Under the pieces are notes generated by a model. It saw only the letters and a program-made list of their open reading frames with translations, had not been told where the DNA came from and did not search any database. Of a DNA stretch of 34,195 nucleotides, positions 15,505 through 34,195 are shown piece by piece. Where the stretch lies: contig JAUWQW010000016.1 in assembly GCA_030610885.1 (NCBI GenBank), positions 1 through 34,195 of the forward strand. The letters are read 5' to 3'. A program made the translations under genes and the position numbers. Positions within the stretch are counted from its first letter, which is position 1; every line of letters begins with the position of its first letter. This stretch comes from Candidatus Aminicenantota bacterium. Its GTDB lineage: Bacteria; Acidobacteriota; Aminicenantia; UBA2199.

Positions 15505-15531
15505 TAAACTGATGTGGGTATTTATTTTAAT

Positions 15532-16005
15532 ATGAGAGGGAGAAAACTCTTTACAAATATAAAAATATCAATTTTATCTACAATTATTTTATGTACATAT
15601 TTTTGCACTTATAGAGTTGAACCTGAAAAAATATATGGATTAAGAAGTAAAATAGTAGGGCTTTGTAAAAGTTTAGTCGGAATTCCTTATAGGTATGGAG
15701 GAGATGACATTGATGGTTTTGATTGTAGCGGATTTGTATATTATGTTTATGATTCATTTGGGGTTAAAATACCGAGAAATGCAAAAAAACAGGGAAAAAT
15801 AAGATATAGAGTGAGATTTAAGCATGTCAGACCAGGTGATATTGTTGTTTTTAAATTGAAAAGAGGATGGCATACTGGGATTTATATAAATAAAAGATAT
15901 TTTATCCATTCTCCTAAAAAGAAAGAAACTGTAAGAACAGAACAATTTAGTTCTTATTGGAATAGGCACTTAAAATTTGTTATTAATGTAATTGATAATT
16001 TATAG
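15532..16005 (+). CDS. NlpC/P60 family cell-wall endopeptidase
   Basis: A 157-residue exported cysteine peptidase that probably cuts peptide stems of peptidoglycan. After a basic start (MRGRKL) a hydrophobic segment ILSTIILCTYFC gives a signal peptide, possibly a relaxed lipobox. The domain has GIPYRYGGDDIDGFDCSGF with the catalytic Cys, RPGDIVVFK, the catalytic His in GWHTGIYI and a third polar His in YFIHSP. An in-frame GTG at 15514 would add six residues; the ATG is preferred because the signal peptide then begins normally. No clear ribosome site is present. The gene follows tRNA-Leu by 27 nt and is probably on the same transcript. Confidence 0.85.
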   Translation: MRGRKLFTNIKISILSTIILCTYFCTYRVEPEKIYGLRSKIVGLCKSLVGIPYRYGGDDIDGFDCSGFVYYVYDSFGVKIPRNAKKQGKIRYRVRFKHVRPGDIVVFKLKRGWHTGIYINKRYFIHSPKKKETVRTEQFSSYWNRHLKFVINVIDNL

Positions 16006-16040
16006 AGATTAACTTTTTTTTAAAGTAACCCTTTTCCTGA

Positions 16041-16730: not shown

Positions 16731-16757
16731 TTTTTATTCTCCTTTATTCTAAATAAA

Positions 16758-16786
16758 TTTATAATACAATAAAAATATATTGTCAA
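16758..16786 (-). promoter_or_regulatory. Predicted promoter of the PEGA lipoprotein gene
   Basis: On the minus strand a perfect TTGACA (781-786), a 17-nt spacer and TATAAA (758-763). The start would lie near 16751, giving a leader of about 20 nt with the GGAG site. Confidence 0.7.
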
Positions 16787-16806
16787 GTTAGAGAAATAAA
16801 GAAAAT

Positions 16807-18360: not shown

Positions 18361-18368
18361 TGAATTTA

Positions 18369-19259: not shown

Positions 19260-19279
19260 ATTTTACCTTCTTTAAATTA

Positions 19280-19308
19280 TAAATATCAATACGAAAGAAG
19301 AATGTCAA
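19280..19308 (-). promoter_or_regulatory. Predicted promoter of the DUF362-polyferredoxin operon
   Basis: On the minus strand a perfect TTGACA (303-308), a 17-nt spacer and TATTTA (280-285). The leader would be about 14 nt and contains AAGG. Confidence 0.55.
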
Positions 19309-19344
19309 TAGTTTAATTATAATAGGCTTAATTTAAATTTACAG

Positions 19345-20703
19345 TTAATTGTCTTTTAAAATGGTTATTTTTAAAAATTTACCCCTATTTTTATTTTTTA
19401 TTTTAAAGGAATCTGAAATAGGGGAACCATAACACCATATAATTTTTTCATTATAATTTAGTAATACAGGGCAAAGATTTCTTAATTCATATGGAATTCC
19501 AGATTCTCTTATCATCTCAAATACTTTTTGATTAAAGGAGGAATTTATTTTTATATATTTATCAGGTTTTTTAGCATTTCTTATTAATAAAGGAAATTTC
19601 ATATATGAATATGGAACTAATATCTCGTTATTGTTTTCTGGTTTTATATAATCTTCTGTTTGTTCTATTTTGATGATCTTTTTTATGTCTTTTATTCTGA
19701 CCGTTCCAGCAGAATTAATAATGTATTTATAATCAGGAATGAAAATATCATCTGGGAATATATATGCCTTATGAAATTTCAAGTTTAATCCGGGAATTGA
19801 AATGCCACTGGATATTGATGAGGTGTTGATAATATTTTCAATATGATTAAAATCTATATTAAGTAAATTCCCCTTTAAAATTCTTATATATTCTCTTATT
19901 ATGTGTCTCTTTATAGCAGGGTTATATATACTAATTATATTCAAAGGTAATATCTTTTCTAAAATTAAATTTTCTTTTAAAATTTGTTTTGCTAAATCAG
20001 TAAAATATTCATTTTCTTGTTGAATGATTGTAATTGTTTTAAATATCTGGTTTTCAATATTGGGTTCTATCTCTTTTATGTGTGGAATTATAGTGTTTCT
20101 GATCTTGTTTCTTATAAACTCATTTTGCTTGTTTGTATAATCCTCATAATACTGGATTTTATTCCTTTTTAAAAAGCTGATTATGTCTTCTTTTGAGAAT
20201 ATTAAGAGGGGTCTTATAATATTGTTTCCCTTTTTCGTAAATATAGCACTTAATCCCTGGTTTCCACTTCCCCTTAAAAGTTTTATTAAAAATGTTTCAA
20301 ATAGATCAGATTTTGTATGAGCAGTTGCAATTTTTGAATTTTTATATTTTGACGAAACCTTATTAAAAAATCTATATCTGAGTATTGAAGCCGCATGTTC
20401 AAGGTTTAGTTTATTTTTTAATTTATAAGAGATTACATCCTCTTTTGCTTTTAAAAGTTTTATATTCAAGGATTTGCAAAAATTTTCTATCCAATGCTCT
20501 TCTTTTTTTGAATCTTTTCTTATCTGGTGATTAAAGTATGCTGCAATTAATTGAAAATTAATATTTTCTTGTAGTTTTTTAAGTAAATGTGTTAATGTGA
20601 CAGAATCTTTTCCCCCAGAAAGGGCCATAATTATAGTTTCATTATTGTCAATAAGTTTGAGTCTTTTTATATATTTGAGAAATAAAGGATATAATTTTTT
20701 CAT
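19345..20703 (-). CDS. tilS: tRNA(Ile)-lysidine synthase
   Basis: TilS converts C34 of tRNA-Ile(CAU) to lysidine so that it reads AUA. The PP-loop ALSGGKDSVTL lies at residues 27-37, with AAYFNHQIR, TAHTKSDLFETFLIKLLRGSG and the EDYTNKQNEFIRNKIRN segment. A C-terminal domain follows, giving 452 residues. The start is placed at 20703 (MKKLYPLFLKYIKR), because a longer in-frame start at 20742 lies inside tRNA-Met. Only 9 nt separate the tRNA 3' end from the ATG and there is no Shine-Dalgarno, so tilS is probably made from the same transcript after tRNA processing and translated with almost no leader. Confidence 0.9.
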   Translation of the reverse strand: MKKLYPLFLKYIKRLKLIDNNETIIMALSGGKDSVTLTHLLKKLQENINFQLIAAYFNHQIRKDSKKEEHWIENFCKSLNIKLLKAKEDVISYKLKNKLNLEHAASILRYRFFNKVSSKYKNSKIATAHTKSDLFETFLIKLLRGSGNQGLSAIFTKKGNNIIRPLLIFSKEDIISFLKRNKIQYYEDYTNKQNEFIRNKIRNTIIPHIKEIEPNIENQIFKTITIIQQENEYFTDLAKQILKENLILEKILPLNIISIYNPAIKRHIIREYIRILKGNLLNIDFNHIENIINTSSISSGISIPGLNLKFHKAYIFPDDIFIPDYKYIINSAGTVRIKDIKKIIKIEQTEDYIKPENNNEILVPYSYMKFPLLIRNAKKPDKYIKINSSFNQKVFEMIRESGIPYELRNLCPVLLNYNEKIIWCYGSPISDSFKIKNKNRGKFLKITILKDN

Positions 20704-20712
20704 AAGTAAATA

Positions 20713-20785
20713 TAGCGGCGGAGGGATTTGAACCCCCGACATAACGGATATGAGCCGTCTGCTCTACCGACTGAGCTACGCCGCC
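20713..20785 (-). tRNA. tRNA-Met (anticodon CAU), elongator type
   Basis: The acceptor GGCGGCG pairs with CGCCGCT (G1-U72 wobble), discriminator A. D arm AGCTCAGTCGGTAGAGC, anticodon stem GACGG/CCGTT with loop CTCATAT, and T loop TTCAAAT. CCA is not encoded. It lacks the unpaired 1-72 position and the GGG/CCC anticodon stem of the initiator. From memory its acceptor and T arm match the Bacillus subtilis elongator tRNA-Met closely. A tRNA-Ile2 identity cannot be formally excluded, as both have CAU genes. Confidence 0.88.
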
Positions 20786-20796
20786 ATAAGTGAAAT

Positions 20797-20825
20797 ATTA
20801 TACTATTTTTCTCTATTTTAATCAA
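20797..20825 (-). promoter_or_regulatory. Predicted promoter of tRNA-Met and tilS
   Basis: On the minus strand TTGATT (820-825), a 17-nt spacer and TATAAT (797-802). The start would be about 5-6 nt before the tRNA 5' end. Confidence 0.65.
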
Positions 20826-20909
20826 GAGTAAAAGGGAAACAGTACATAACAATTGAATAAATTTGGATTTTCTGATATCTTGATATATTAACCATAAAGG
20901 AGGAATAAA

Positions 20910-21986
20910 ATGTCTGAACGTATGATAAAACAATTTATGGACATGGTACAAATTGACAGTGAATCCGGTAATGAAGTGGAATTTATTGATTACCTGATAA
21001 TTGAATTCAAAAAGCTTGGAGCTAAGGTTTCAAAGGACGGGTACGGTAATTTGATAGCTAATTTTTATGCTAAGAATTGTATAGGAAAAGATCCCATTCT
21101 TTTATCCTGTCATGCAGATACAGTGAAACCTGGAAAAGGTATAGAACCTGTGCTTAAGGATGGAGTTATCCGTTCCAAAGGAGATACTATTCTGGCTGCT
21201 GACGATAAAGCCGGAATTGCAGAACTATTAGAGGCTCTTAGAATTGCTGAGACCCATCCTCCTATTGAAGTGGCTATAAGCAGACAGGAGGAAGTGGGTC
21301 TTATAGGTGTAAAAAATCTTGATTTTAGCAGATTGAAGGCTAAGAAGGGATTTCTTCTGGACAATGATACTCTTGAAACTATTGTAATTGGTGGTCCTTC
21401 TTATTTTGCTATTGATGTTAATATAAAAGGACGTGGTGCCCATGCAGGTATGGAGCCTGAAAAAGGTATAAATGCAATATTAGCAGCATCAAAGGCAATT
21501 TGTGCAATTAAGCTTGGACGTCTGGATCATGAGACCACAGCAAATGTTGGAGTAATTAACGGTGGAATGATAAGGAACGGAGTTCCTGAATCTGTTACTT
21601 TTTTAGCAGAATGTCGAAGTCTGAACCATAGGAAGGGGGAAAAACTTGCCCAAGATATGGAAAAGATAATAAAAGAAGAGGTAGAATCTATAGGAGCTAC
21701 TGTGGAGATCAAGGTAGATAATCTATGCAAAGCTGTGGATATCCCGAAGGATTCATGGACAGTAGAAATATCAAAGAAAGCCTTAAAAAAGGTTGGAGTT
21801 AATGCAAAAACTACTTTTATTACAGGGTTCACTGATGCTTCTATTTACAACAACAAGGGTATAGAGGTGGCAGTAGTGGGGATCGGTGCAAGACTGGAGC
21901 ACTCCTGTGATGAACATATCTATGTGGCTGATATGGAGAAGGCTTTGAATATGATAGTTGAGATATTAAGACTATCAGCAGAATAA
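20910..21986 (+). CDS. M20 family metallopeptidase (PepT-like)
   Basis: A 358-residue dizinc aminopeptidase/deacylase of the M20 family, similar to peptidase T-like proteins. The zinc ligands and catalytic residues can be followed: His in LLSCHADTVKPG, the bridging Asp in ILAADDKAG, Glu-Glu in SRQEEVGLIG, Asp in LLDND, and a C-terminal His in LEHSCDEHIYV. GRGAHAGMEPEKGINAI is the dimerisation-domain signature. A strong AAAGGAGG site precedes the ATG. The gene looks richer in G+C than its neighbours (30 of 60 bases in 21241-21300, against 18 of 60 in 22201-22260). A lipoprotein gene follows 13 nt after the stop. Confidence 0.88.
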   Translation: MSERMIKQFMDMVQIDSESGNEVEFIDYLIIEFKKLGAKVSKDGYGNLIANFYAKNCIGKDPILLSCHADTVKPGKGIEPVLKDGVIRSKGDTILAADDKAGIAELLEALRIAETHPPIEVAISRQEEVGLIGVKNLDFSRLKAKKGFLLDNDTLETIVIGGPSYFAIDVNIKGRGAHAGMEPEKGINAILAASKAICAIKLGRLDHETTANVGVINGGMIRNGVPESVTFLAECRSLNHRKGEKLAQDMEKIIKEEVESIGATVEIKVDNLCKAVDIPKDSWTVEISKKALKKVGVNAKTTFITGFTDASIYNNKGIEVAVVGIGARLEHSCDEHIYVADMEKALNMIVEILRLSAE

Positions 21987-21999
21987 TAAGGAGGCTGGA

Positions 22000-22524
22000 A
22001 TGAAGATTAAAAATTTATTTTTTATCATTACTCTTTCAATCTTTTTGGTTTTTATAGCTTGTGAGGGGAAAAAGGAGGTTAAACCTTCCGAAGGATCAGC
22101 GCTTGAAAAAGAAGTATCAAAAATAAGTCCAAAGGAAATTGGGGAAATTGTTGGGAAACTATATGTTGAGGCAATAGAAGAGGTTGTTGAATGTTTAAAG
22201 GATAAACCAGAAGTAATTGAAGCAAAGAAAAAGATGGAAGAATTAAAAGAAAGTTATGTACAAAAGCTCATAGTTTATGGAAAAAAGCATGAGAAAATGA
22301 ATCAGGATGAAAAAAACACTTTTAATAGAACTGTTGGGTATGGTATTAATAAAGTTTCCAGAACAATTTTTAAATCATATTTAGACATACAAAAATATTA
22401 TAGGAAAAAGGATAGGGAGTTAGGTAATCTGATAACAACATTTAATGCTATTACACAATATGCAAACTTTGAATTATTAAAAAAACAAGCTCCAAAAGAG
22501 GCTGAACGATTAGGTATTAAATAA
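22000..22524 (+). CDS. Unknown lipoprotein, helical
   Basis: A 174-residue protein with a lipoprotein signal peptide (MKIKNLFFIITLSIFLVF, lipobox FIAC, Cys at residue 21). The mature part is rich in Lys and Glu and looks helical, with EIGEIVGKLYVEAIEEVVECLK and a C-terminal AITQYANFELLKKQAPKEAE. I do not recognise a family. A good AAGGAGG site lies 7 nt before the ATG. It is 13 nt downstream of the M20 peptidase gene and probably cotranscribed, although base composition differs. It ends just before a convergent gene. Confidence 0.65.
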   Translation: MKIKNLFFIITLSIFLVFIACEGKKEVKPSEGSALEKEVSKISPKEIGEIVGKLYVEAIEEVVECLKDKPEVIEAKKKMEELKESYVQKLIVYGKKHEKMNQDEKNTFNRTVGYGINKVSRTIFKSYLDIQKYYRKKDRELGNLITTFNAITQYANFELLKKQAPKEAERLGIK

Positions 22525-22551
22525 GTATAACTGATATGTTTGTACTAAGAT

Positions 22552-23190
22552 TTATAAAATAGATTTTATTTTTTGAATTATCATACTTTCAGGAGCAGCT
22601 CCCTCCTGATATTCTGTTTCATTTATAACAGTTCTAGGTACACCCATTACATTATATTTTTGAGAGAGTTGAGGAAACTCTGTGGCTTCAACCATATCTG
22701 CTTTTACTTTTTTACTGTAATAAGCCATCTGGTGAGCAAGTATTACAGCCTGCGGGCAATATGGACAGGTTGGTGTAACAAATACCTGAAGATGAATATC
22801 TTTTTCAAGAGTATCAAGGAATTTTTTTGTTTCTGCTTGCAGAGGACTTTCTCCAGTTGATATTAATTTTATTGCTTCAATGATTGAACTGAATTCATAT
22901 CCACTTGGTATACCATAAAATTTAATTCCATAATCTTTATTGTCCATCACCACTATTGCCGGGATTTTATCAACTCCATATTTATCTGCTTCAACTTTAT
23001 CTTTAATAAACTCAAAAACTTGCAACTTGATTTTGTCTGATAATTCACTGATCTCTTTGATTAATGCATGAGTTGTACTACAAAATCTGCATTCAAATTC
23101 CTGCGTGAAGAATTTTAATGTAACTTCTTTTTTCAATCCTTTAAATATCTCTTCTAATTCTTTTTTTACCTTTGTATCTAAGTGTTCCAT
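22552..23190 (-). CDS. Glutaredoxin-like protein / protein disulfide oxidoreductase
   Basis: A 212-residue cytoplasmic protein with two tandem thioredoxin folds, the PDO or glutaredoxin-like arrangement known from archaea and anaerobes. The N-terminal unit has CRFC (in FECRFCSTTH) with cis-Pro loop DKIPAIVV; the C-terminal unit has the active CPYC (in VTPTCPYCPQAV) with VMGVPRTVINE. It probably reduces or exchanges disulfides together with a thioredoxin reductase not seen here. The start is the ATG at 23190, placed 5 nt after AAGGAAGG; the in-frame GTG at 23196 is too close to it. The promoter holds a long palindrome, so the gene is probably under a dedicated repressor. Confidence 0.82.
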   Translation of the reverse strand: MEHLDTKVKKELEEIFKGLKKEVTLKFFTQEFECRFCSTTHALIKEISELSDKIKLQVFEFIKDKVEADKYGVDKIPAIVVMDNKDYGIKFYGIPSGYEFSSIIEAIKLISTGESPLQAETKKFLDTLEKDIHLQVFVTPTCPYCPQAVILAHQMAYYSKKVKADMVEATEFPQLSQKYNVMGVPRTVINETEYQEGAAPESMIIQKIKSIL

Positions 23191-23203
23191 AAACACCTTC
23201 CTT

Positions 23204-23224
23204 TATAGTTAATAATTAACTATA
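23204..23224. promoter_or_regulatory. 21-bp perfect palindromic operator
   Basis: Half-site TATAGTTAAT, a central A, then the exact reverse complement ATTAACTATA. It overlaps the -10 box (23219-23224) and the expected transcription start of the glutaredoxin-like gene, the classical position for a repressor site. The 7-1-7 core AGTTAAT-A-ATTAACT has the shape of Fur/PerR-family or MarR-family operators, but the regulator cannot be named. Confidence 0.7.
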
Positions 23225-23247
23225 TAATATTTTTTGATTTTTGTCAA
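23219..23247 (-). promoter_or_regulatory. Predicted promoter of the glutaredoxin-like gene
   Basis: On the minus strand a perfect TTGACA (242-247), a 17-nt spacer and TATAGT (219-224). The -10 box is the upstream end of the palindrome. Confidence 0.7.
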
Positions 23248-23325
23248 ATCATAAACCTTTAATTTTAATTTTTCGTATTTAAATATTTATTATGATAATC
23301 TTGTTTTATAATTTTGGAGGTTTGT

Positions 23326-24969
23326 ATGAAAAGAACACTCATTTTATACTTTTTGTTTATTTTTGTATTTTCATTTGAATTATTTTCAGATGAATTGCTT
23401 ACTGTACCGGAAAAAACAAATTATCAGAGAACCTCTACTTATCAAGAAGTTATAGATTTTATCAAGGCACTTAAAGAGAGGCATCCAGAAAAGATGAAGA
23501 TAGAATTTATTGGGATTACTACTGAAGGCAGAAAAATCCCTATGATAATTCTAAGTAAATATGGAATTTCTAAGCCTCGGGAAAGTAGATTGCTGAATAA
23601 ACCTCCAGTTTTGATTATGGCAAATATTCATGCTGGTGAAGTTGAAGGTAAAGAATCAACTCAGATGTTAATTAGAGAAATTCTTGAGAATAACAGAGAA
23701 GATTTGTTAGAGAATCAAACTGTTTTAATTATACCCATATTCAATTGTGATGGTAATGAGAAAATGTCATCTAAAAATCGACGAGATAATGGCCCTGAAC
23801 TTGCAGGTGAAAGAAAGAATGGGCAAGGGTATGATCTTAATAGAGATTTTGTAAAGGTGGAAAGTTTTGAAGTAAGAGCTTTGATTACAAATGTTTTTAA
23901 TTGTTGGGATCCTGTTCTTTTTGTGGATATGCATACTACTAATGGGTCTTTACATCAAGAACCAGTAACCTATGCTCCAAACATTGCACCTGAAGGTGAT
24001 CAAGTTTTAACTGATTATATGTGGAAAAAAGCCCTGCCTGAAATAGATAAAACCTTATTAAAAAAATATAAAGTTGAAAGTATTCCTTATGGGAATTTCA
24101 TAAAAAGAGATGATCCTGTTAAAGGCTGGAGAAATAGAGCTATAGAAGCACGATTTGGCACCTCTTATTATGGATTAAGAAACCGTTTTTCTATCTTAGA
24201 TGAAAACTATTCACAAGCTGATTTTAGAACCAGAATAAAAGGTGCTTTGAGCTTTATCATAGCTATTTTGGAATACACCAATAAACATATGGATGAGATG
24301 TGCAAGTTAATTAGAGAGGCTGATTTAAGAGCAATTAAAGAGGTTAAAAATTCAGAATTTCCAATAAGATTTAAGCTAACCAAGACATATGATTTCTTAA
24401 TAAAAAGCTATATATTTAAAAAGAGAGAAATCCTGGAATCTGAAAGGGAGCGTTATCCAAAAAAGTGGTACGGAGATTATCTTGTAGAAAAAACAGATAA
24501 AAAGAAAAACTATTACACAACACTTTATGCCAGTTTTAAACCATATAAAAAGGTAAAATTAAGTGAAGGCTATATTATGCTACCATCTGAGAAACAAGTG
24601 GCTATGCATTTGAAACTTCATGGTATTAATGTTCAGGTTATTGGGGAGTCGTTTAAAGGAAAAGTCAGATTGTATAAGGTTATCAAAATTGAATCCTTAA
24701 AAAGCCCTTATCAGGGGCACTTTTTACATACAAATATTGATTATAAAGAGGTGGAGAAGGAAGTTGATGTTCCAAAAGGCTCTTTTTTCATCACTTTATC
24801 TCAACCACTTTCAAGACTTGCTGCTTATTTACTGGAGCCTCAATCCAGGGATGGATATGCTGCGTGGAATTTTTTTGACAGAATTATAGTTCACCAATGG
24901 AGAGGTTACTCTCTATATCCTGTATATAAAGTACTCAAAACACCAAGAGTACAGATGCACAATTTTTAA
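23326..24969 (+). CDS. M14 family zinc carboxypeptidase, exported
   Basis: A 547-residue exported metallopeptidase. The signal peptide is MKRTLILYFLFIFVFSFELFS. YQEVIDFIKALKERHP and GITTEGRKIPMIILS are the usual start of the domain. The zinc ligands are His and Glu in NIHAGEVEGKES near residue 101 and His in DMHTTNGSLHQE near residue 202; the catalytic Glu is probably in SILDENYSQADFRTR near residue 301. The C-terminal 230 residues are family-specific. The start is set at the ATG at 23326, because the upstream in-frame TTG at 23314 is part of the GGAGG ribosome site. The peptide substrate is unknown. Confidence 0.83.
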   Translation: MKRTLILYFLFIFVFSFELFSDELLTVPEKTNYQRTSTYQEVIDFIKALKERHPEKMKIEFIGITTEGRKIPMIILSKYGISKPRESRLLNKPPVLIMANIHAGEVEGKESTQMLIREILENNREDLLENQTVLIIPIFNCDGNEKMSSKNRRDNGPELAGERKNGQGYDLNRDFVKVESFEVRALITNVFNCWDPVLFVDMHTTNGSLHQEPVTYAPNIAPEGDQVLTDYMWKKALPEIDKTLLKKYKVESIPYGNFIKRDDPVKGWRNRAIEARFGTSYYGLRNRFSILDENYSQADFRTRIKGALSFIIAILEYTNKHMDEMCKLIREADLRAIKEVKNSEFPIRFKLTKTYDFLIKSYIFKKREILESERERYPKKWYGDYLVEKTDKKKNYYTTLYASFKPYKKVKLSEGYIMLPSEKQVAMHLKLHGINVQVIGESFKGKVRLYKVIKIESLKSPYQGHFLHTNIDYKEVEKEVDVPKGSFFITLSQPLSRLAAYLLEPQSRDGYAAWNFFDRIIVHQWRGYSLYPVYKVLKTPRVQMHNF

Positions 24970-24999
24970 TTTATGGGAGGACTCCAAAAGATCTATCTA

Positions 25000-25028
25000 T
25001 TGACCTTATCTTGTTTTTCTGATAAATA
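25000..25028 (+). promoter_or_regulatory. Predicted promoter of the glycosyltransferase pair
   Basis: TTGACC at 25000-25005, a 17-nt spacer and TAAATA at 25023-25028. The ATG at 25034 starts 5 nt later. An AAAGG motif ends only 1 nt before the ATG, too close to act as a ribosome site. Confidence 0.5.
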
Positions 25029-25033
25029 AAGGT

Positions 25034-26092
25034 ATGATAATAGAACAATTTTTACCTGCATTTCATTATGGTGATGCAATAGGAAATTCAACTTTAAGCC
25101 TTCATAAATGTTTATTGGAGAAGGGGATTGATAGTCGAATTATATCTTTAACTATTGATGAGAATATGAGGGATAAAGCCTCTTTTTTCAAAGATTACAG
25201 AGAAAATCCTGAATCTATAAAGATCCTTCATTTTGCTGTTCCTTCAGAGTTAACAGATTTTTTTATAAAAACAAAGGGAAAAAAGGTTATGGTGTATCAC
25301 AATATTACACCTGCTCATTTTTTTGTAGGTTTTAGTGATGAATTTGTGAAATTTACAAATGAGGGTAGAAATCATCTCAAGAGATTAAAAGACTCTTTTG
25401 ATATGTCTATTGCTGATTCAGAATATAATGCTCAAGAGTTGAGAGAGCTAAGCTTTAGAAATGTGTTTGTTTTTCCGATTATGATAAATTTTGAAGAGTA
25501 TTCAAAACCATTCAATAAACCTTATTATAACCTTTTAAATGATGAAAGGAAAAACATAATTTTTGTAGGAAGAATCTCTCCAAATAAAAAGATAGAAGAT
25601 TTAATAAAAGTATTGTTTTTTTATAAAAAGTTTATATCGCCTTCAATAAGACTTATTGTTGCAGGTAATACTGCAACACTTCCAAAATATTTTTATTCTG
25701 TAAGGGATCTTGCATCAAGATTTTTCTTAACATCAGATGACATTGTGTTTACTGGTCATATTCCATTTGATGAACTTCTCTCAGTATATAAACTTGGTAA
25801 TATTTTTCTTTCAATGAGTGAGCATGAAGGATTTTGTTTGCCTCTTATAGAGAGTTGTTGTTTTCAGGTTCCTATAATTGCATATGATGCAGGTGCTGTA
25901 TCAGAAACCCTGGATGAAGCAGGAATAATTGTAAAAAATAAAAATTATGAATATATTGCCGGGTTGGTTGATGAGGTGATATTTAATAAAAAATTAAATT
26001 CTAAGTTAAAAAATTATGAAAAAAAGAGGGTTGAAAATTATTTTAAGGATTCCAATCCAGAAAAATTCTTATTAATATTGAATAAGCTATGA
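25034..26092 (+). CDS. GT4-family glycosyltransferase
   Basis: A 352-residue retaining glycosyltransferase with the GT-B fold, probably building a surface or lipid-linked glycan in the cytoplasm. The N-terminal acceptor domain opens IEQFLPAFHYGDAIGNSTL and has VMVYHNITPAHFF and SIADSEYNAQEL. The C-terminal donor domain has IIFVGRISPNKKIEDLI near residue 180, DIVFTGHIPFDELLSVY and the EX7E motif in SEHEGFCLPLIES near residue 280. The N-terminus is conserved close to the ATG, so the start is firm although no usable Shine-Dalgarno is present. It overlaps the next glycosyltransferase by ATGA. Confidence 0.83.
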   Translation: MIIEQFLPAFHYGDAIGNSTLSLHKCLLEKGIDSRIISLTIDENMRDKASFFKDYRENPESIKILHFAVPSELTDFFIKTKGKKVMVYHNITPAHFFVGFSDEFVKFTNEGRNHLKRLKDSFDMSIADSEYNAQELRELSFRNVFVFPIMINFEEYSKPFNKPYYNLLNDERKNIIFVGRISPNKKIEDLIKVLFFYKKFISPSIRLIVAGNTATLPKYFYSVRDLASRFFLTSDDIVFTGHIPFDELLSVYKLGNIFLSMSEHEGFCLPLIESCCFQVPIIAYDAGAVSETLDEAGIIVKNKNYEYIAGLVDEVIFNKKLNSKLKNYEKKRVENYFKDSNPEKFLLILNKL

Positions 26093-27258
26093 TTAAGATT
26101 GGAATAATTGTTCAAAGATATGGAAAAGAGGTGGTTGGCGGAGCTGAAACATTAGCTAAAAATATTGCTGAAAGGCTTACTTCAACTGGATTTGATATTA
26201 CAGTTTTTACAACAACTGCAAAAGATTATATAACCTGGAAAAACTATTATAATCAGGGCGAGTCAATACTTAAAGGTGTAAATATAAAGAGGTTTAATGT
26301 TGAAAAGGAGAGAGATATTGAAAATTTCAACAAATACTCTGAAGAATTTTTTGTAGCTGATTCTCAAAAAAGGGATGAAATGGATTGGATTAAAAGGCAG
26401 GGACCTTATTGTCCAGATTTAATAGATGCTTTGATAAATGAGCAAAAGATTTTTGATATTTTTTTATTTTTTACTTATCTCTATTATCCAACTGTAGAGG
26501 GAATAATAGTAGTTGAAAAACCAATTATATTATTTCCTACAGCTCATGATGAACTTCCTATATATTTAAACTTAATGAATCAGGTTTTTAAAAAACCTGC
26601 GTCGCTTTTTTTTCTCACAGGTGCTGAAATGAATTTTGTAAGGAAATTGTTTAACCCTAATAATAAAATGGAATTGGTAAGAACAGGCATAGATATAAAT
26701 GAGAATATAGATGAAAATCTCTTTAGAAAGAAATATTTGATGTTTCTTCCATATATACTTTATGCTGGGAGGATAGAGAGAGGTAAAGGGCTTGAACTAA
26801 TATTTGAAGCTTATGAAATTATAAGGAAAAAGAGATTGGTAAATCTGGTCTTAATTGGAAAGAAATTAATGGATATTCCTGAAATTGATGGTATAAATTA
26901 TTTGGGATATATTGCAGAGGATGAAAAAATCTCTGCATTTAAGGATGCTGTTTTATCTATTCAGCCTTCTTCAATGGAGAGTCTCTCAATAACTACTCTT
27001 GAATCATTCTCACAAAAGACGCCTGTGCTTGCAAATAAAAAGTCGAATGTTCTTAAAGAACATATTGAACTTTCTGGAGGTGGATTGTTGTATAATAATT
27101 TAGAGGATTTTGTTGAAAATTTCACAAAGATTTATGACAAAAGAAATTTAAGAAATAAAATGGGGATTAATGGTTATAATTATGTTAATAAATTTTATAC
27201 CTGGGATGTTGTTATTGAAAAAATATCAAATGGAATAAAAAGTGTAATTAAAGGATAA
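26089..27258 (+). CDS. GT4-family glycosyltransferase
   Basis: A 389-residue GT-B glycosyltransferase. The N-terminal domain has QRYGKEVVGGAETLAKNIAERL near residues 9-30, a phosphate-loop-like GGAE, and FTTTAKDYITWKNYY. The donor domain has LYAGRIERGKGLELIFEAYE near residue 224 and, at the EX7E position, SMESLSITTLESFS near residues 300-313. TNLAKN-type sugar preference cannot be read. It starts within the stop of the previous glycosyltransferase gene (ATGA), so the two are translationally coupled and likely act in one pathway. No polysaccharide export gene is seen nearby. Confidence 0.82.
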   Translation: MIKIGIIVQRYGKEVVGGAETLAKNIAERLTSTGFDITVFTTTAKDYITWKNYYNQGESILKGVNIKRFNVEKERDIENFNKYSEEFFVADSQKRDEMDWIKRQGPYCPDLIDALINEQKIFDIFLFFTYLYYPTVEGIIVVEKPIILFPTAHDELPIYLNLMNQVFKKPASLFFLTGAEMNFVRKLFNPNNKMELVRTGIDINENIDENLFRKKYLMFLPYILYAGRIERGKGLELIFEAYEIIRKKRLVNLVLIGKKLMDIPEIDGINYLGYIAEDEKISAFKDAVLSIQPSSMESLSITTLESFSQKTPVLANKKSNVLKEHIELSGGGLLYNNLEDFVENFTKIYDKRNLRNKMGINGYNYVNKFYTWDVVIEKISNGIKSVIKG

Positions 27259-27286
27259 ATTATATATATAGAATATTGGTGTGTGA

Positions 27287-28444
27287 GTGGAAGAGAGAAG
27301 ATCGGATAACTTAAAAAATAAATCTCTTGATATAGATAAGATTGCTCAAATCTGTTCTGATTGTGGTAATTGTTTATATTCCTGTCCTGTTTATAATTCA
27401 GAGTTAATTGAACCAAATTCTCCAAGGGGGAAAATTAATTTAATAAAAGCAATTCTTGATAATAGGTTAAAACCCAATAAGATTAATAAGGGATTTATGT
27501 TTCAATGTTTACTATGCGGGAGTTGTGAGCATATATGCACAAATGGTGTTGAATATTTGGATATGATGATCAATTACAGAAATTTAATTTTTAAAGAGAA
27601 AAATATCCCATTTAAGAAAAAAACAATCCTCTATTTTTATCAAACCCTTATATTAAAGAAGTTAGGTTGGTTTCTTAAAATTTTATCAAAAACTTCATTG
27701 AAGAAAAAATTGACAATACCAGAAATAGATAATATAAATTTAAACAAATTATATACATCGGATTATTCAAAAGATTTTGATATTTTACTTTTCCCTGGTT
27801 GTGTTTTAACATATTTTTATTCATCTCAAATTGAAAAAATAAAGAGATTTCTAGAAAATAAGGGTTTTAAGGTTGCTTTACCAAAGGGTTTAAAATGTTG
27901 TGGTTTCCCATATATATCTCAAGGTTGGGGCAAGAGGTTTGAAAGGTTAAAAACAAAAAATATCAATATATTTTCAGATATTAAGTTTAAGTATCTTGTA
28001 GTACCATGTGGAACAGGTGTGATTACTTTTAATAAATATTATGATTTAAAGGAAGTCGAGATTTATGAATTTACTGAATTTATATATAAATTTATAAGAA
28101 ACTCAAAAGTTAATATAAATATATTAAAAGAAGTGGATAAAAAAATTACATATCATGATCCATGTCACAACCTGAAATCTCTTGGAATATATAAAGAGCC
28201 GAGAGAGTTTATGAAACAATTTGGCGTAAAATTTGTTGATGATAAATCTGAACTATGTTGTGGTTTTGGGGGAATATTCAGTGTTGGATTTCAAAATACT
28301 TCAAAAAAAATACTTGATAAAAGAGAAAAATATTTAAAAGAGAATGGAGCAGATATTGTTGTTACATCATGTCCTGGTTGTTATATGCAATTAAAAGAGA
28401 ATTTATCATGTGATGTTAAGTTTTTTGTAGAGTTGTTTGACTGA
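27287..28444 (+). CDS. GlcF/HdrD-type iron-sulfur oxidoreductase subunit
   Basis: A 385-residue protein with two N-terminal [4Fe-4S] motifs (CSDCGNCLYSCPVY near residue 23 and CLLCGSCEHICTNG near residue 76) and two CCG domains (PGCVLTYFYS, KCCGFPY, then DPCHNLKSLG, CCGFGGIFS, SCPGCYMQL). This is the architecture of the glycolate oxidase iron-sulfur subunit and of heterodisulfide reductase D. Its usual flavin dehydrogenase partner GlcD is absent from the window. The only near start is GTG at 27287, 28 nt after the previous gene, without a clear ribosome site. An FMN-binding protein gene follows 11 nt after the stop and probably shares the transcript. Confidence 0.82.
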   Translation: MEERRSDNLKNKSLDIDKIAQICSDCGNCLYSCPVYNSELIEPNSPRGKINLIKAILDNRLKPNKINKGFMFQCLLCGSCEHICTNGVEYLDMMINYRNLIFKEKNIPFKKKTILYFYQTLILKKLGWFLKILSKTSLKKKLTIPEIDNINLNKLYTSDYSKDFDILLFPGCVLTYFYSSQIEKIKRFLENKGFKVALPKGLKCCGFPYISQGWGKRFERLKTKNINIFSDIKFKYLVVPCGTGVITFNKYYDLKEVEIYEFTEFIYKFIRNSKVNINILKEVDKKITYHDPCHNLKSLGIYKEPREFMKQFGVKFVDDKSELCCGFGGIFSVGFQNTSKKILDKREKYLKENGADIVVTSCPGCYMQLKENLSCDVKFFVELFD

Positions 28445-28455
28445 TTGGTGTTTTT

Positions 28456-29025
28456 ATGATACAAAAAAAAATGCGTATATTATTAATTATAATTATTTTT
28501 TGTTCACAAGTATTTCCAATCTCTGGATATTCAGAATTACCTGAAGTAGATCTTGAAAAATTTTATTCTATAGCAAAAAGAATAACAGAAGCTGACAAAA
28601 TTGAGATATATAAGAGTAAAATAGGTAGATTTGCATTTTATAAAAAAGATAAAACTTATGGCTTTGTTTTATTAACTGGAGATTATGCTTTATTTGAAGG
28701 ATATAGGGGACCTACATCTGTAGCACTTGTTTTTAATAACAAAGGTATAATTTCCAAATGTTCTATGGTCAGATCAAGGGATACAAGGTCATATGTTTAT
28801 TTGTTGGTAAAGGAAGGCTTTCTTGATAAATTTAAGGATTTTAAAATAAATAATACTATTAAAGTAGATACAATAAGCGGTGCAACAGAAACATGCCGGG
28901 CAATTCAAAGATCTGTTCAAAAAACCATTGAAGAAATTTTACCTATATTTAATTCATTAAAAATAGATAAAAATGGTGTTCTTCATTCAACTAATCCTGA
29001 TTTTAGTTTAAAAAAATTGAAATAG
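28456..29025 (+). CDS. Exported FMN-binding domain protein (RnfG/NqrC-like)
   Basis: A 189-residue protein with a signal peptide (MIQKKMRILLIIIIFCSQVF) and one FMN-binding domain. The covalent flavinylation motif is DTISGATETCRAIQRSV near residue 138, with the Thr of SGAT as the expected ApbE target. In RnfG and NqrC this domain carries one FMN in the periplasm. No Rnf/Nqr neighbours are present, so it is a free-standing carrier, possibly for the upstream iron-sulfur protein or the NapH-NapG-like polyferredoxin at 16807-18360. No ApbE gene is in the window. No strong ribosome site; it lies 11 nt after the upstream stop. Confidence 0.8.
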   Translation: MIQKKMRILLIIIIFCSQVFPISGYSELPEVDLEKFYSIAKRITEADKIEIYKSKIGRFAFYKKDKTYGFVLLTGDYALFEGYRGPTSVALVFNNKGIISKCSMVRSRDTRSYVYLLVKEGFLDKFKDFKINNTIKVDTISGATETCRAIQRSVQKTIEEILPIFNSLKIDKNGVLHSTNPDFSLKKLK

Positions 29026-29050
29026 ATACTTAAATAAAACTGAAATTACA

Positions 29051-30103
29051 TTACTTTAAATAAAATCCAGCAGATAAAAAGCCCACCCAGTGTTCTAAGG
29101 AGAATGGAGCTGTTATTCCATAACCAGATTTTTTAATAGGTAATACTCCTTCAGAATATGTATCAGAATATCTTAGGATTTTTCCCTCGAGATGTTTATC
29201 AGGAAAAATCTTATTTACAATTTTTAAAGTAACAAGCATTCCAAATGGAATAGAATACCTACCGCACCATAAGACTTTTTTATAGTCTTTGTTGATCTTA
29301 CCATCTAAAGCCAGTGTCAATCTTTCTATTTTGTTTTCAGAAATATTTTCAGAAAGGAATGCTTTTGCAATCTTTTTATCATAAATTGTGCCGAGATTAT
29401 GAGCTTGTTCTCCTTCTCCAAACAGATTATTATTAAAATCTTTTCCATAGTGATTCGCATCTGTAGAAATCAAAAAGAATATATCTTTACCGATTTTCAA
29501 ATTATTGATTTTAATATAATTGGCAATTAAACCGGATAGATCATTTGAAATTTCATCCATTGTTTTAAAATCCATACCAGTAATCATTATAGGAGTTATT
29601 TTTATATCAGGATTAAAGTATTGTAAAAATGGGATCATTGCTTCAATGGAATGTTCCAGCATATGAGCTTTGTTACTTACAATATATAAACCTTTTTTAA
29701 GTCTATTTTTTAGAAATTCCCTTAAACCTGAAATCTGAACTTTTTTATAAGGTCCTTTCCAGCATTTATATTTATCAAGTATTAATATTTTTTTAGGATC
29801 TCCAATCTTTTTTTTGACCGTTCCATGAGTTACACCAAAAATGACTACCTCTTTTGTTTTAAAATTTTTAAATAGAGGATAGTAAACTCTTGCAGCATAC
29901 AGGTAATCATCATGTGGAGAAATGCCTGCAATAAGTTCAGATAAATTAAATTTTTGCTTCTCTATTGATTCTAAATAATTCATTAACCTGTTTACCTGCT
30001 TTGATTTCCAGAAGAATCCAATATTGTCTCTTATTGGTCTGGTATCCTCAGAAAACATATGTATATTAAGAAAAATAAAGAATATAAATAGGATTTTTTT
30101 CAT
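29051..30103 (-). CDS. Memo-family (AmmeMemoRadiSam B) protein with signal peptide
   Basis: A 350-residue protein of the Memo family, related to extradiol dioxygenases. The metal-site positions are visible: His in GISPHDDYLYAARVYYP near residue 65, His in IFGVTHGTVKK near residue 93, HMLEHSIEAMIPFLQYF near residue 150, and STDANHYGKDF near residue 215. It begins MKKILFIFFIFLNIHMFSED, a signal peptide, whereas most Memo proteins are cytoplasmic and lie beside AMMECR1 and radical-SAM genes, which are absent here. AAGGAG lies 8 nt before the ATG. Convergent with the FMN protein gene. Function unknown. Confidence 0.78.
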   Translation of the reverse strand: MKKILFIFFIFLNIHMFSEDTRPIRDNIGFFWKSKQVNRLMNYLESIEKQKFNLSELIAGISPHDDYLYAARVYYPLFKNFKTKEVVIFGVTHGTVKKKIGDPKKILILDKYKCWKGPYKKVQISGLREFLKNRLKKGLYIVSNKAHMLEHSIEAMIPFLQYFNPDIKITPIMITGMDFKTMDEISNDLSGLIANYIKINNLKIGKDIFFLISTDANHYGKDFNNNLFGEGEQAHNLGTIYDKKIAKAFLSENISENKIERLTLALDGKINKDYKKVLWCGRYSIPFGMLVTLKIVNKIFPDKHLEGKILRYSDTYSEGVLPIKKSGYGITAPFSLEHWVGFLSAGFYLK

Positions 30104-30154
30104 TTATCTTTACTCCTTATCTTTATAATTTCATAATTAAACAATATTTGCAAG

Positions 30155-31702
30155 GGGCTGTCTATGCCAAAATCCACCGCCTAATTTATAATTATGTCTC
30201 CTGGACAACAAATTCATATTGTTTTAAGCTTTAATCATCGATATGATCACAAATCAGTCATGAGTTCACCTCCAAAAGCTCAAAAACGTACAAAAATTTA
30301 TTTTTAAACCGACTAGTTCCCAAACTTCTTGAGTTTTCACAAAGCCAACAAAATTTTTGACCTATCCTGCAGGTAAACATGCAAGCTCCATAATTCTTTT
30401 TCTGGCATTTATTAAAATATCAATTGAAGGATGTGCTTCTGCCATATAGACTATGAATTCATTTTTTTTCTTTCTTATCAAACCAGCTATATTTATTATA
30501 TTATAGCGAATCGCCTTCATACGTTTCTTTTCCCACTCTTTACTAAAAATGAGTTGTCTCATAATACTATTGATATTTACTGCAAAAATCATAATCCACC
30601 ACCAGGCTGCATTCACGCCCTTTCTTGCTAGTAACAATTTTATTAGGCACAAAGCATGCTTCAGCCCATTGCTGCCCCGTAGCTATTTTCTTCCCTCTTA
30701 TTTCTTTGTATATCGTATTCCACTGGATCTCCCTGTCTGTATTAATGGCTCTTTTTAAGGCATCCGTAATATCACAACCTACAGCAAATCCGATCCTGCC
30801 AAATCTGTTATTCTCCCCATCATCACAGTACTTCAATAATTCATGCTGATACGCAGCACTGTCCGAACGAATATAAATCTCCTCTACTCCCTCTGGTAAC
30901 ATTAAAATACTCTCTTTTAATATCCGTAATACTTCATGACCTGCGGGCACGTTACCATCTCTAAATTCAGTATGTAGTACAAGTTCCTGCTCTGCCCACC
31001 AAGCATTTATGGGTTGATAGGCTTTCCCATCTTTATAAGCACATAATGCATTACTCTTTGAGGTTGGTATAAGAGTTGCGTCAATGTCTATTGTTGCACT
31101 GCTTTTATAATTATGTCTCTGATGAAAATCCACTAACTCTAAATTAATATCAGAAATCTTATTTAAATTATCATTCATGGCAGGTATAAACGCTTTACCT
31201 GACTCTCTCTTCTTCTTTTCTGCTTCATTGTGAAAATTAGAAAGATATCGGAATATGGCAGACGGTGACGGTATTCTATTCACTTTCTGCCTGCGCCAAC
31301 GCCTCCTGATCTTCTTACGCTCACGCTTGTTTTCCCCTCTTAATTCTATATGTTTCAATATTCTGCAAAAACCCTCATCATGTTCCAGCTTCTCTATATC
31401 ATCAATGCACTCTCCACCGGCAAGATTAAGAAGTATCAAGGATATTATTATCTGCTCATCTCTCCAACCTTGACTCTCCTTCTTTATCTGCATGCTTCTA
31501 CTTATAATATTATCCAGACCCAATAGTTTGAATAGTTCCAGATATAATAATAACCCTGATAAACCCGTAAAATTTTTTGATTTTTTTTCCTCTACACACT
31601 TGAAAGGTAATATTCCCTGTGGCATAATATGTTCACCTCGTTTGTCGGAGTTAAGTTTAATTGCTAAACTCTATTATAACCTATTATAGGTACAAACGGG
31701 GC
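30155..31702 (-). mobile_element. Degenerate IS1380-like insertion sequence
   Basis: The region holds a broken IS1380-type transposase gene plus non-coding flanks (about 200 nt downstream, about 75 nt upstream). Weak candidate terminal repeats are CTGTCTATGCC at 30158-30168 and, reading inward from the right, CCGTTTGTACC at about 31689-31699, matching at 7 of 11 positions. No target duplication could be fixed, so the ends are approximate. Confidence 0.5.
30362..31625 (-). pseudogene. IS1380-type transposase, catalytic segment deleted
   Basis: The first frame starts at 31625 (GAGGTGA upstream) and carries the N-terminal region, the DDE aspartates TIDIDATLI and IRSDSAAYQ, then WAEACFVPNKIVTSKKGRE, which in relatives is followed by about 90 residues with the catalytic Glu (a RGRxGxxE-type block). 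Here it breaks at about 30611-30622. A second frame begins directly with VNAAWWWIMIFAVNINSIM, the segment after that block, and runs through KRMKAIRYNIINIAG to a stop at 30362. The third acidic residue is therefore lost and the frame shifted. Comparison is from memory of the family. The element cannot transpose by itself. Confidence 0.8.
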
Positions 31703-31838
31703 TTTTTTATACTTTTTTTTCCAGCTTTTGACTCTCTTCCTGAATTATTGATTCTTTTATTATAATTATATATCGGTTTTTTACGTAAAATTAATTTTTT
31801 TAGGTGGTGAATCAAGGTATGCAGAGCTAAAAAAAGTG

Positions 31839-31866
31839 TTGACAGATGGGTAAATAATGTTATAAT
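31839..31866 (+). promoter_or_regulatory. Consensus promoter of the asnA leader
   Basis: Perfect TTGACA (31839-31844), a 16-nt spacer and perfect TATAAT (31861-31866). Initiation 7 nt downstream of the -10 box would fall on the A of the leader ATG at 31873. It is the best promoter match in the window. Confidence 0.8.
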
Positions 31867-31872
31867 TCTAAT

Positions 31873-31971
31873 ATGATTAAGAATTGTTTCTTACTTGTTT
31901 TACCTGCAGTTTATAATGTAAACAATTCCAATAATAATAACAATAATAATCAGGCGGTTCTGCCCGTCTGA
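31873..31971 (+). CDS. Asn-rich leader peptide of asnA
   Basis: A 32-codon frame, ATG at 31873 to TGA at 31969-31971. It starts MIKNCFLLVLPAVYNVNNS, then seven consecutive Asn codons at 31930-31950 (AAT, with one AAC), then QAVLPV. Eleven of 32 codons are Asn. It lies between a consensus promoter and asparagine synthetase, so it is most simply an amino-acid-sensing leader peptide: scarcity of charged tRNA-Asn would stall ribosomes in the run. No Shine-Dalgarno precedes it; the predicted mRNA begins at the AUG. The AAT triplet repeat could arise by slippage, but the framed stop, the AAC and TCC interruptions and the location argue for function. Confidence 0.7.
   Translation: MIKNCFLLVLPAVYNVNNSNNNNNNNQAVLPV
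31881..31970 (+). promoter_or_regulatory. Leader RNA hairpins flanking the Asn run
   Basis: GAATTGTTT (31881-31889) is perfectly complementary to AAACAATTC (31920-31928), a 9-bp stem just before the Asn run. After the run, CAGGCGG (31951-31957) pairs with CCGTCTG (31964-31970), 7 bp with one G-U, overlapping the last codons. A ribosome stalled in the Asn run would cover its 5' arm. The sequence after it is A-rich, not T-rich, so it is not an ordinary intrinsic terminator. Confidence 0.5.
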
Positions 31972-32044
31972 AAATATAATTATAAAAAAACCAATATTCT
32001 TGTTAAAAATTAAATCAATTTCTATATTAAAATAAGGAGAAAAA

Positions 32045-33082
32045 ATGTTTAAACACTTAATTATACCAAAAGATTATATGTCAATAATAAATTTAGAGGA
32101 AACACAAAGGGCTATTAAAGATATTAAGTTTTTTTTTCAGGAAAACCTGGCTGCGTCATTAAATTTAAGAAGGGTTACGGCACCTATTTTTGTTAAATCA
32201 GGAACAGGTATTAATGATGATTTAAATGGAGTTGAAAAACCAGTTTCTTTTTTTATTAAAAATTTAGATAATATAAAAGCTGAGATTATTCAATCACTGG
32301 CTAAATGGAAAAGGCTTACTCTTTTTGATCTAAATATAAAAGAGGGAGAGGGTATTTATACAGATATGAATGCAATAAGACCCGATGAAATTTTGGATAA
32401 CATGCATTCCCTGTATGTTGATCAGTGGGATTGGGAAAGGGTTATTTCAAGGGAAGAAAGAAACCTGGATTTTTTAAAAGATGTTGTTAAAAGGATTTAT
32501 GGAGTTTTAAAAAAAACAGAGAACTATGTCTCCAGACTTTTTCCAAAAATTAAATCCTTTCTTCCTGAAAAAATCACTTTTATTCATGCTGAGGAACTGG
32601 AAGAGAAATACCCGAAGTTAACTCCAAGAGAGCGCGAAGATAAAGTGTGTAAAGAATATGAAGCAGTTTTTATTATTGGTGTTGGAGCAAATTTAAAAAA
32701 TGGCAAACCACATGACAGCAGAGCTCCTGATTATGATGACTGGACAACTCCAACAGAGAAAGGATTGGGTTTAAATGGTGACATTATTGTATGGTATCCG
32801 ATTCTGGGAAAAACGTTTGAGCTTTCTTCTATGGGTATTCGGGTTGACAAAGAAGTACTAATAAAGCAACTGGGGATTACCGGAAATAGTGAAAGAAAGA
32901 AACTTTTCTTTCATCAAAAATTGTTAAATGATGAATTACCCCTTTGTATTGGAGGCGGAATAGGTCAATCCAGATTATGTACTTATTTTTTAAGAAAGGC
33001 TCATGTTGGTGAGGTTCAGTCAAGTATATGGCCTGAAAAAATGAAGGAGGAGTGCAAAAAAAACAATATATTTTTACTTTAG
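32045..33082 (+). CDS. asnA: Aspartate-ammonia ligase (asparagine synthetase A)
   Basis: AsnA makes asparagine from aspartate, ammonia and ATP through an aspartyl-adenylate; it is related to class II aspartyl-tRNA synthetases. The 345 residues match family length. Visible motifs are LRRVTAPIFVKSGTGINDDLNGVEKPV near residues 42-68 in outline, YTDMNAIRPDE, YVDQWDWERVI, DSRAPDYDDW near residue 226, and the class II motif 3 GGGIGQSRLCTYFL near residues 299-312. AAGGAG lies about 7 nt before the ATG. It lies 73 nt behind an Asn-rich leader peptide, and so is probably repressed when tRNA-Asn is well charged. A short hairpin with a T-run follows. Confidence 0.95.
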   Translation: MFKHLIIPKDYMSIINLEETQRAIKDIKFFFQENLAASLNLRRVTAPIFVKSGTGINDDLNGVEKPVSFFIKNLDNIKAEIIQSLAKWKRLTLFDLNIKEGEGIYTDMNAIRPDEILDNMHSLYVDQWDWERVISREERNLDFLKDVVKRIYGVLKKTENYVSRLFPKIKSFLPEKITFIHAEELEEKYPKLTPREREDKVCKEYEAVFIIGVGANLKNGKPHDSRAPDYDDWTTPTEKGLGLNGDIIVWYPILGKTFELSSMGIRVDKEVLIKQLGITGNSERKKLFFHQKLLNDELPLCIGGGIGQSRLCTYFLRKAHVGEVQSSIWPEKMKEECKKNNIFLL

Positions 33083-33116
33083 AATATGAGTAAGTGTTTG
33101 GCCTTCATGTCCCTAT

Positions 33117-33138
33117 CTTGAATGAGTCAAGTTTTTTT
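33117..33138 (+). terminator. Putative intrinsic terminator of asnA
   Basis: CTTGA (33117-33121), loop ATGAG, TCAAG (33127-33131), then seven T residues. The stem is only 5 bp, but the T-run is directly adjacent and lies about 35 nt after the asnA stop. Confidence 0.5.
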
Positions 33139-33226
33139 AATAATTAGAAAAAAACAAAAAATTACTCTATCGAATTGATAATTAACTTATAAAGGATGAC
33201 AACAGGTACGTGTGAATTACATTATT

Positions 33227-34114
33227 TTAAATTATTCCAATAGCCTTTCCCCCTTCATAGAAACCTTTAAGAACGAAATCAAGGTCTTCATCTGTATGAG
33301 TGGCTGAAAAAGAAGTTCTTATCATTGCATCTTCAGGAGGAACAGCAGGTGCTATTACTGGATTGCAAAATATGCCAAAATCCCTTAAGAATTTCCATAG
33401 CATAAAGGTTTTTTCATCATTTCCTATAAATACAGGAATTATCGGGGTTTCTGTATTACCTGTGTGATAACCCATAGATATTAATTTTTTATTCATAGTT
33501 TTACTTATTTCCCAGAGCCTCTCTCTTCTCCATGGTTCATTTTGAATTATCTCCAATGCTTTATTTGCTGCTCCTAATGCAGGAGGTGTTATTGAAGCAG
33601 AAAATATAAGGCTTCTTGCTGCATGTTTTATATATTGAATGATCTTATGGTCACCAACAACAAATCCTCCAAGAGAAGCAAATGCTTTTGAGAAAGTTGT
33701 CATAATAAGGTCAACTTCTTCTAACATGTTAAAATGCTCGCAAGTTCCTCTTCCATTTTTTCCTAATATTCCAATACTATGAGCATCATCAACCATTACA
33801 CGTGCATTGTATTTTTTTGCAAGTTTAACTATTTCAGGGATATTCGATAGATCTCCCTCCATACTAAAAACTCCATCAACAACAATGAATTTGCCTTTAT
33901 TCTCTGGTAATCGACTGAGTTTCTCATCCAGATCTTTCATATCATTATGCTTGTATTTTGTAACATTAGCATAGGAAAGTCGAGTAGCATCAACAATTGA
34001 AGCATGGTCCATTCTATCAATTATAATAACATCATTTCTCCCGGCTATTGCATCCGTAATGTCAAAAGTTTTTAAGGTAAAACTTTCAAAACCCTTTATA
34101 TTAAAGGTTTTCAC
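33227..34114 (-). pseudogene. 5'-truncated KBL/BioF-type alpha-oxoamine synthase gene
   Basis: The product resembles PLP-dependent glycine C-acetyltransferase, 8-amino-7-oxononanoate synthase or a serine palmitoyltransferase relative, but has only 295 residues instead of about 390-400. Kept: AGRNDVIIIDRMDHASIVD, VVDGVFSMEGDLSNI, VDDAHSIGILG, the PLP lysine in TFSKAFASLGG, and MIRTSFSATHTDEDLD. The first 100 or so residues, with the NYLGL-type start and the FSTG segment that packs on PLP, are replaced by about 23 unrelated residues behind a GTG at 34114. None of the frames in the 81 nt upstream encodes the missing part. A new-start protein may be made, but normal catalysis is doubtful. Confidence 0.7.
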
Positions 34115-34172
34115 CTTTATTTAGCTTTTCTCCCTCTTTTTTGTTAAAATCTGCATTTCAGGGAGATTAAAA

Positions 34173-34195
34173 ATGCATGATAATGTAGTTAAATT
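34173..34195 (+). CDS. Start of a further gene, cut by window edge
   Basis: An ATG at 34173 follows GGGAG (34161-34165) at a spacing of 7 nt and opens MHDNVVK before the window ends. It is divergent from the truncated KBL/BioF gene. Seven codons allow no functional statement. Confidence 0.4.

Follow-up and report, generated by a model that had tools for sequence, protein, structure and literature searches.

A leader peptide rich in asparagine codons and a reused hairpin upstream of asnA in Aminicenantia: a putative ribosome-mediated attenuator

The asnA gene of an Aminicenantia genome is preceded by a short reading frame in which a run of asparagine codons is followed directly by a conserved hairpin, and we consider it probable that this leader acts as a ribosome-mediated attenuator tying asnA expression to the level of charged tRNA-Asn. 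A preliminary description of this DNA had already proposed an asparagine leader-peptide attenuator; comparative evidence now supports that reading, while neither a response to asparagine as such nor the output step is proved. There are no transcript, ribosome-profiling or reporter data for this class, and the case is built from sequence comparison. On present evidence, we would class the element as a ribosome-mediated attenuator whose effector amino acid is new, as is its hairpin module, which is shared with leaders of other amino acid biosynthetic genes.

Results

The stretch of DNA analyzed (the window, 34,195 nt) is contig 88 of a 2.5-Mb assembly. The features of the asnA region are as follows.

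31839 to 31844, plus strand: -35 hexamer TTGACA, part of a 12/12 promoter match; spacing to the leader ATG is kept in the asnA relatives
31861 to 31866, plus strand: -10 hexamer TATAAT with extended TG, part of the same 12/12 match; transcription start predicted at or near the leader ATG
31873 to 31971, plus strand: leader peptide ORF of 32 amino acids, MIKNCFLLVLPAVYNVNNSNNNNNNNQAVLPV followed by the stop, from translation; homologous leaders in 14 other genomes
31930 to 31950, plus strand: seven Asn control codons in a row, directly 5' of the hairpin; Asn is enriched in asnA leaders only
31951 to 31970, plus strand: 20-nt hairpin CAGGCGG-TTCTGC-CCGTCTG, from gapless alignment, pair counts and covariance-model matches
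31971 to 32001, plus strand: 31-nt G-free stretch 3' of the hairpin, from sequence; relatives are C-rich at +10 to +20 and U-rich at +20 to +28, and the window is without this C/U pattern
32034 to 32039, plus strand: Shine-Dalgarno (SD) sequence AAGGAG of asnA, from sequence
32045 to 33082, plus strand: asnA, aspartate--ammonia ligase, 345 amino acids, above the TIGR00669 cut-off

The promoter, the frame and the gene had each been pointed out in the preliminary description, and each was borne out. The promoter, TTGACA-N16-TATAAT at 31839-31866, matches the sigma-70 consensus at all 12 positions; no other 12/12 match occurs in the 20 kb scanned (14196-34195), nor any other exact match to this pattern in the window. 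Translation of 31873-31971 confirmed a 32-codon frame with 11 Asn codons, seven of them consecutive (31930-31950, AAT AAT AAT AAC AAT AAT AAT). The distance from the leader stop to the asnA start at 32045 is 73 nt, as claimed, and AsnA scores 403 bits against TIGR00669 (cut-off, 293). Since the leader ATG lies only 6 nt past the -10 hexamer, the predicted transcript is probably leaderless, with its 5' end at or near the AUG; no SD sequence precedes the leader ATG in the window. The hairpin starts immediately 3' of the last Asn codon, and its 3' arm overlaps the leader stop codon (31969-31971). Neither the position of the hairpin directly after the Asn run nor the leaderless start had been mentioned before.

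Several other elements were noted in the surroundings. A divergent IS1380-family transposase gene (30567-31625, minus strand), which scores under the curated cut-off, is located a short way upstream of the leader. An antisense promoter-like match (31979-32006, minus strand, 11/12) is located just downstream of the hairpin, and a terminator-like stem is found on the minus strand at 31966-31951; both are probably by-products of A/T-rich sequence. Elsewhere in the same genome, a putative promoter of asnS (C34:20472-20509) has its -10 hexamer a few nucleotides before the asnS ATG, and such close promoter-ATG arrangements number 11 compared to 0 for the reversed pattern, which suggests that leaderless genes are common in this organism.

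The preliminary description had proposed that relatives be compared for a short frame and Asn codons that are kept while the surrounding DNA varies, and this check was passed. In a sample of 142 Aminicenantia genomes, 23 carry asnA, and 15 of these 23 have a leader with an Asn cluster and then the hairpin upstream of the gene; the element was not found in the other eight. The 15 loci, from four families of the class, keep the promoter, the frame, the Asn cluster and the hairpin; the remainder of the leader has diverged. Their common layout is a promoter near the ATG of an ORF of approximately 30 codons (the -10 hexamer mostly 6 to 12 nt from the leader start), the Asn cluster, and a gapless 20-nt hairpin over the stop codon. 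The AsnA proteins of the leader-bearing relatives are 59 to 73% identical to that of the window, the best named relative being that of Candidatus Aminicenantes (locus L010, 71% identity), whose upstream sequence is identical to that of class genome G066. Leader peptides from four loci, MIRRKNFFVSETNTLVINNNHINWAVAAAQ (L090), MPARNSLLIARTSFFVIKNNKNNNWVVTATQ (L010), MCLPDKFLLSTTILAATVSAASNNNNNNRAVPPA (L003) and MEEKKETLLSLPITPPVCTTSNNNRAVPTAR (L007), illustrate that the N-terminal halves are dissimilar while promoter, Asn cluster, hairpin and spacing are alike. At locus L005, the leader is located about 310 nt upstream of asnA. Both AAT and AAC occur among the Asn codons, which would be expected if it is the amino acid and not a DNA repeat that is kept. 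On the AsnA tree, the presence of the leader requires just two changes, indicating that leader and gene travel together. Genome G062 has two asnA copies (L104 and L090), with an Asn leader only on the copy closest to that of the window; its copy without the leader peptide groups with a class copy that lacks the leader and with non-class sequences.

The hairpin pairs covary. The alignment of 14 asnA loci contains no gaps, and 93.8% of its paired cells can pair, compared to 26 to 53% when the 3' side is slid. Eight cells are changed on both sides, a number reached in only 1 of 500 shuffles; seven distinct rows have C-G as the outer pair and five have U-A. Conservation also extends beyond pairing to the sequence itself (GGGCGG...CCGCCC). 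A covariance model of the Asn codons plus hairpin (R1), run over the 142 class genomes, gave 15 matches at E <= 0.1, all 15 of them upstream of asnA. When R1 was applied to 80 asnA loci chosen by similarity of the protein (mostly from outside the class, mainly Bacteroidota), only L010 matched besides the window. A second model of the hairpin (R2) and a hairpin-only pattern search located the module in many class genomes without asnA. No convincing further copy was found in the genome of the window itself, where the next R2 match has an E value of 0.86. In a 396-genome sample of the phylum, the four matches outside the class included none with a leader ORF. Searches against Rfam matched only tRNAs in the window and returned nothing near the gathering score at five related loci; at none of these six places did a T-box or other known Rfam leader family match. 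One genome, G082, stands far above any other with 26 R2 matches, which are possibly a dispersed hairpin repeat.

The occurrence of the same hairpin module before genes for other amino acids was unforeseen. We counted 58 leaders, preceding 14 asnA, 35 TrpB-like, 2 TrpE, 6 DAHP synthase and 1 cysteine synthase genes, one further asnA leader being left out as it is cut by a contig end; the non-asnA loci (trpB2, trpE, aroF and cysK) are L140-L159 and L193-L231, and gene identities were checked with NCBIfam for representatives only. Weaker R2 matches, mostly due to chance, later added two trpB2 leaders (L263 and L264) and one probable hisG leader (L255). Up to the stop codon, the leaders end as follows: ...NNNRAVPTAR (asnA), ...LWNWWAVPTAR (trpB2), ...SINWWWAVHAAL (trpE), ...SFFSFYYFYFWAVPAAQ (DAHP synthase, aroF) and ...LACSCHCWAVPAAR (cysteine synthase, cysK). 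The ORF at approximately 111-191 of L255, MLTPTATPLATAAGLRRHFHGRPAAR and stop, has CAT TTC CAC and a variant hairpin before hisG and is a probable His leader of that gene.

Residues were counted over the 12 codons preceding the hairpin. Asn accounts for 38.7% in the asnA leaders and 0 to 2.5% elsewhere, Trp for 14.6% in the trp leaders and 0 elsewhere, Phe plus Tyr for 46% in the aroF leaders, and Cys for 25% in the cysK leader. The sum of residues matched to the pathway is 166, compared to a maximum of 115 in 20,000 label permutations; this permutation overstates independence, as several leaders come from close relatives, and the pattern holds across the families of the class. At loci L210 and L211, the stop codon falls inside the loop of the hairpin, yet the 3' arm has been retained, pointing to the hairpin as RNA, not the tail of the peptide, as the target of selection. 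We regard the match between codon and pathway as strong evidence, as far as comparison of sequences can provide it, for ribosome-mediated, amino acid-specific attenuation, and as the strongest evidence of this type for codon identity as the putative sensor.

Downstream of the hairpin, G is nearly absent for 30 nt (5% in the asnA leaders). In the leaders in general, C dominates at +10 to +20 and U from about +20 to +30 after the hairpin, and a run of four U residues occurs at +12 to +28 in 40 of 58 leaders, compared to 8.6 in shuffles. The tract in the window is likewise G-free, but A-rich and neither C-rich nor U-rich. No intrinsic terminator with an adjacent U-run was found on the asnA strand, and terminators of this type in the window were not above shuffles.

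Discussion

The arrangement of leader and hairpin lends itself to the following scheme, in which translation of the leader, stalling, the direction of control, the response to asparagine and termination as the output are all inferred. The leaderless 32-codon leader would be translated from the 5'-terminal AUG. When Asn-tRNA is scarce, the ribosome would halt in the Asn run, its leading half covering the 5' arm of the hairpin, which keeps the hairpin from closing and allows asnA expression. With ample Asn-tRNA, the ribosome would reach the stop codon at the 3' end of the hairpin and leave, and the hairpin would close. The closed hairpin would lower expression, most likely through early termination of transcription within the G-free tract before asnA, probably with Rho. 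When one of the late control codons occupies the A site, the ribosome shields about 12 to 15 nt of downstream RNA. As this span is the hairpin 5' arm adjoining the codon, stalling should necessarily open the hairpin and completion of the leader should let it close. The geometry of codons and hairpin is common to all members and, as predicted from sequence, fits attenuation with the sign one would expect, provided that low expression accompanies the closed hairpin. The genome also encodes asnS (C34:19182-20456), so free asparagine, either made by AsnA or imported, would charge tRNA-Asn and close the feedback loop.

The sensing half of this scheme is well supported by the comparative evidence, that is, the predicted leader, its control codons, the hairpin, their conservation and the codon-to-pathway match across five amino acid groups. 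For the output, we think transcription termination likely. The G-free, C-rich and then U-rich tract suggests it, by inference from sequence, and the process is possibly Rho-dependent. Rho is encoded in the genome, and its assistance seems to us nearly an even bet; a U-tract or intrinsic-like mode is rather unlikely. Since the tract of the window is A-rich and lacks the C/U pattern, the evidence from the tract, and with it this reading of the output, is least certain at the window itself. It is also not obvious, in a simple Rho model, why a ribosome stalled upstream should protect the tract. Translational control of some kind we judge unlikely, and any other output somewhat less likely again.

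The closest described systems are found in mycobacteria, and neither concerns asparagine. Leaderless polycysteine ORFs attenuate cys operons (Canestrari et al. 2020, as cited in PMC9031893 and PMC13236596), and an earlier study predicted terminator-less cys leaders, possibly under Rho control, without conserved hairpins able to act as terminators (PMC1262725). Common to these and the asnA leader are a short ORF probably at the 5' end of the mRNA, several codons for the regulated residue in a row close to the stop, a biosynthetic gene downstream and the lack of a conserved terminator. The asnA leader differs in its amino acid and phylum and in the 20-nt hairpin, obligatory and common to several amino acids in Aminicenantia, that lies between the control codons and the stop.

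By analogy with these ORFs, for which such a mechanism has been proposed, the leader might govern access to the SD sequence of asnA. This translational attenuation shares the overall anatomy of the mycobacterial precedent, a leaderless short ORF with a residue run near the stop and no terminator (PMC9031893 and PMC13236596), and in many relatives the pyrimidine tract is able to pair with the purine-rich SD sequence. The gap between -10 hexamer and ATG fits a leaderless mRNA, the start site being predicted; control through SD access is not borne out. In all 13 asnA leaders folded, the computed SD accessibility was nearly the same whether the hairpin was formed or its 5' arm was masked (0.23 and 0.22, respectively, in the window). 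Furthermore, masking the G-rich 5' arm releases a C-rich arm, and this could only make the SD sequence less accessible, an effect of the wrong sign. The nearly equal accessibility in both folded states led us to reject SD sequestration, and translational attenuation remains an unlikely explanation.

Less likely still is a classical three-segment attenuator with alternative 1:2, 2:3 and 3:4 pairings and a U-tailed terminator. In most relatives a U-run does follow the C-rich stretch, at +19 to +28, and in the trp leaders the hairpin 5' arm pairs with the C-rich stretch somewhat better than shuffles (mean z, -0.94). In the asnA leaders, however, this pairing is not significant (mean z, -0.25). 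A U-run is missing from the window, a G-rich segment 3 is absent from the interval separating leader and asnA, no U-tailed terminator with alternative antiterminator pairing was detected on the asnA strand, and no Rfam family matches. Pairing of 5' arm and C-tract as a hidden terminator was rejected, being weak in trp leaders and absent in asnA leaders. The enterobacterial his, trp, phe, leu and thr attenuators have in common with the asnA leader that their control codons are positioned for a stalled ribosome to mask the 5' arm of the first hairpin and that the stop lies near the hairpin. Unlike these, the asnA leader has no SD sequence of its own, no 2:3/3:4 segments and no U-tailed terminator, and Aminicenantia reuse one hairpin sequence for different amino acids. 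The Rho-dependent attenuation of the Escherichia coli tna operon offers another parallel, as the TnaC leader ORF is also followed by a C-rich, G-poor stretch that may load Rho. TnaC, however, detects free tryptophan by means of nascent-peptide stalling at its stop codon and controls catabolism, whereas the Aminicenantia leaders have end-product codons upstream of the hairpin.

It is hard to maintain that the ORF encodes a functional small protein, with a hairpin that binds a regulator and Asn codons that are incidental. Conservation of the hairpin sequence beyond pairing would be in line with such binding, but the N-terminal halves share no sequence, the residue class follows the gene and not the clade, and the peptide tail can be lost while the hairpin is retained (L210 and L211). 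An AAT/AAC microsatellite in frame by accident can be dismissed, for although the run is an AAY repeat within AT-rich DNA, the leader is the only ORF with seven consecutive Asn codons and the only short ORF with at least 11 Asn codons in the window (means of 0 and 0.025, respectively, in 40 order-3 Markov windows), distant relatives share the hairpin adjacency, the AAT/AAC mixing and K/H/G interruptions, and other pathways carry other residues in the same slot.

T-boxes and AsnC are reported means of asnA control by asparagine status. The asnA leader described here differs from both in that no T-box or other Rfam family was found at it and no regulator gene would be needed. In the open-access literature searched, we found neither a described leader-peptide attenuator for asparagine nor a report of attenuation in Aminicenantes.

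In conclusion, we lean, with some reserve, toward the view that Aminicenantia use one interchangeable cassette for Asn, Trp, Phe/Tyr, Cys and His, consisting of a leaderless ORF, control codons that can be swapped, an invariant hairpin-plus-stop and a G-free C/U tract. In this cassette, a single hairpin opened by the ribosome would gate termination without a competing antiterminator or a U-tailed terminator, and the asnA member would be the first leader-peptide sensor of asparagine. If true, this is a simpler attenuator design than the textbook one. An asparagine attenuator would add a missing member to the amino acids known to be sensed by leader peptides, and it would bring to light attenuation in an uncultured class in which one hairpin is reused for several amino acids. 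Given that only the control codons change, the cassette provides natural matched experiments, in which a swap of codons should swap the amino acid that is sensed and the output mechanism can be tested.
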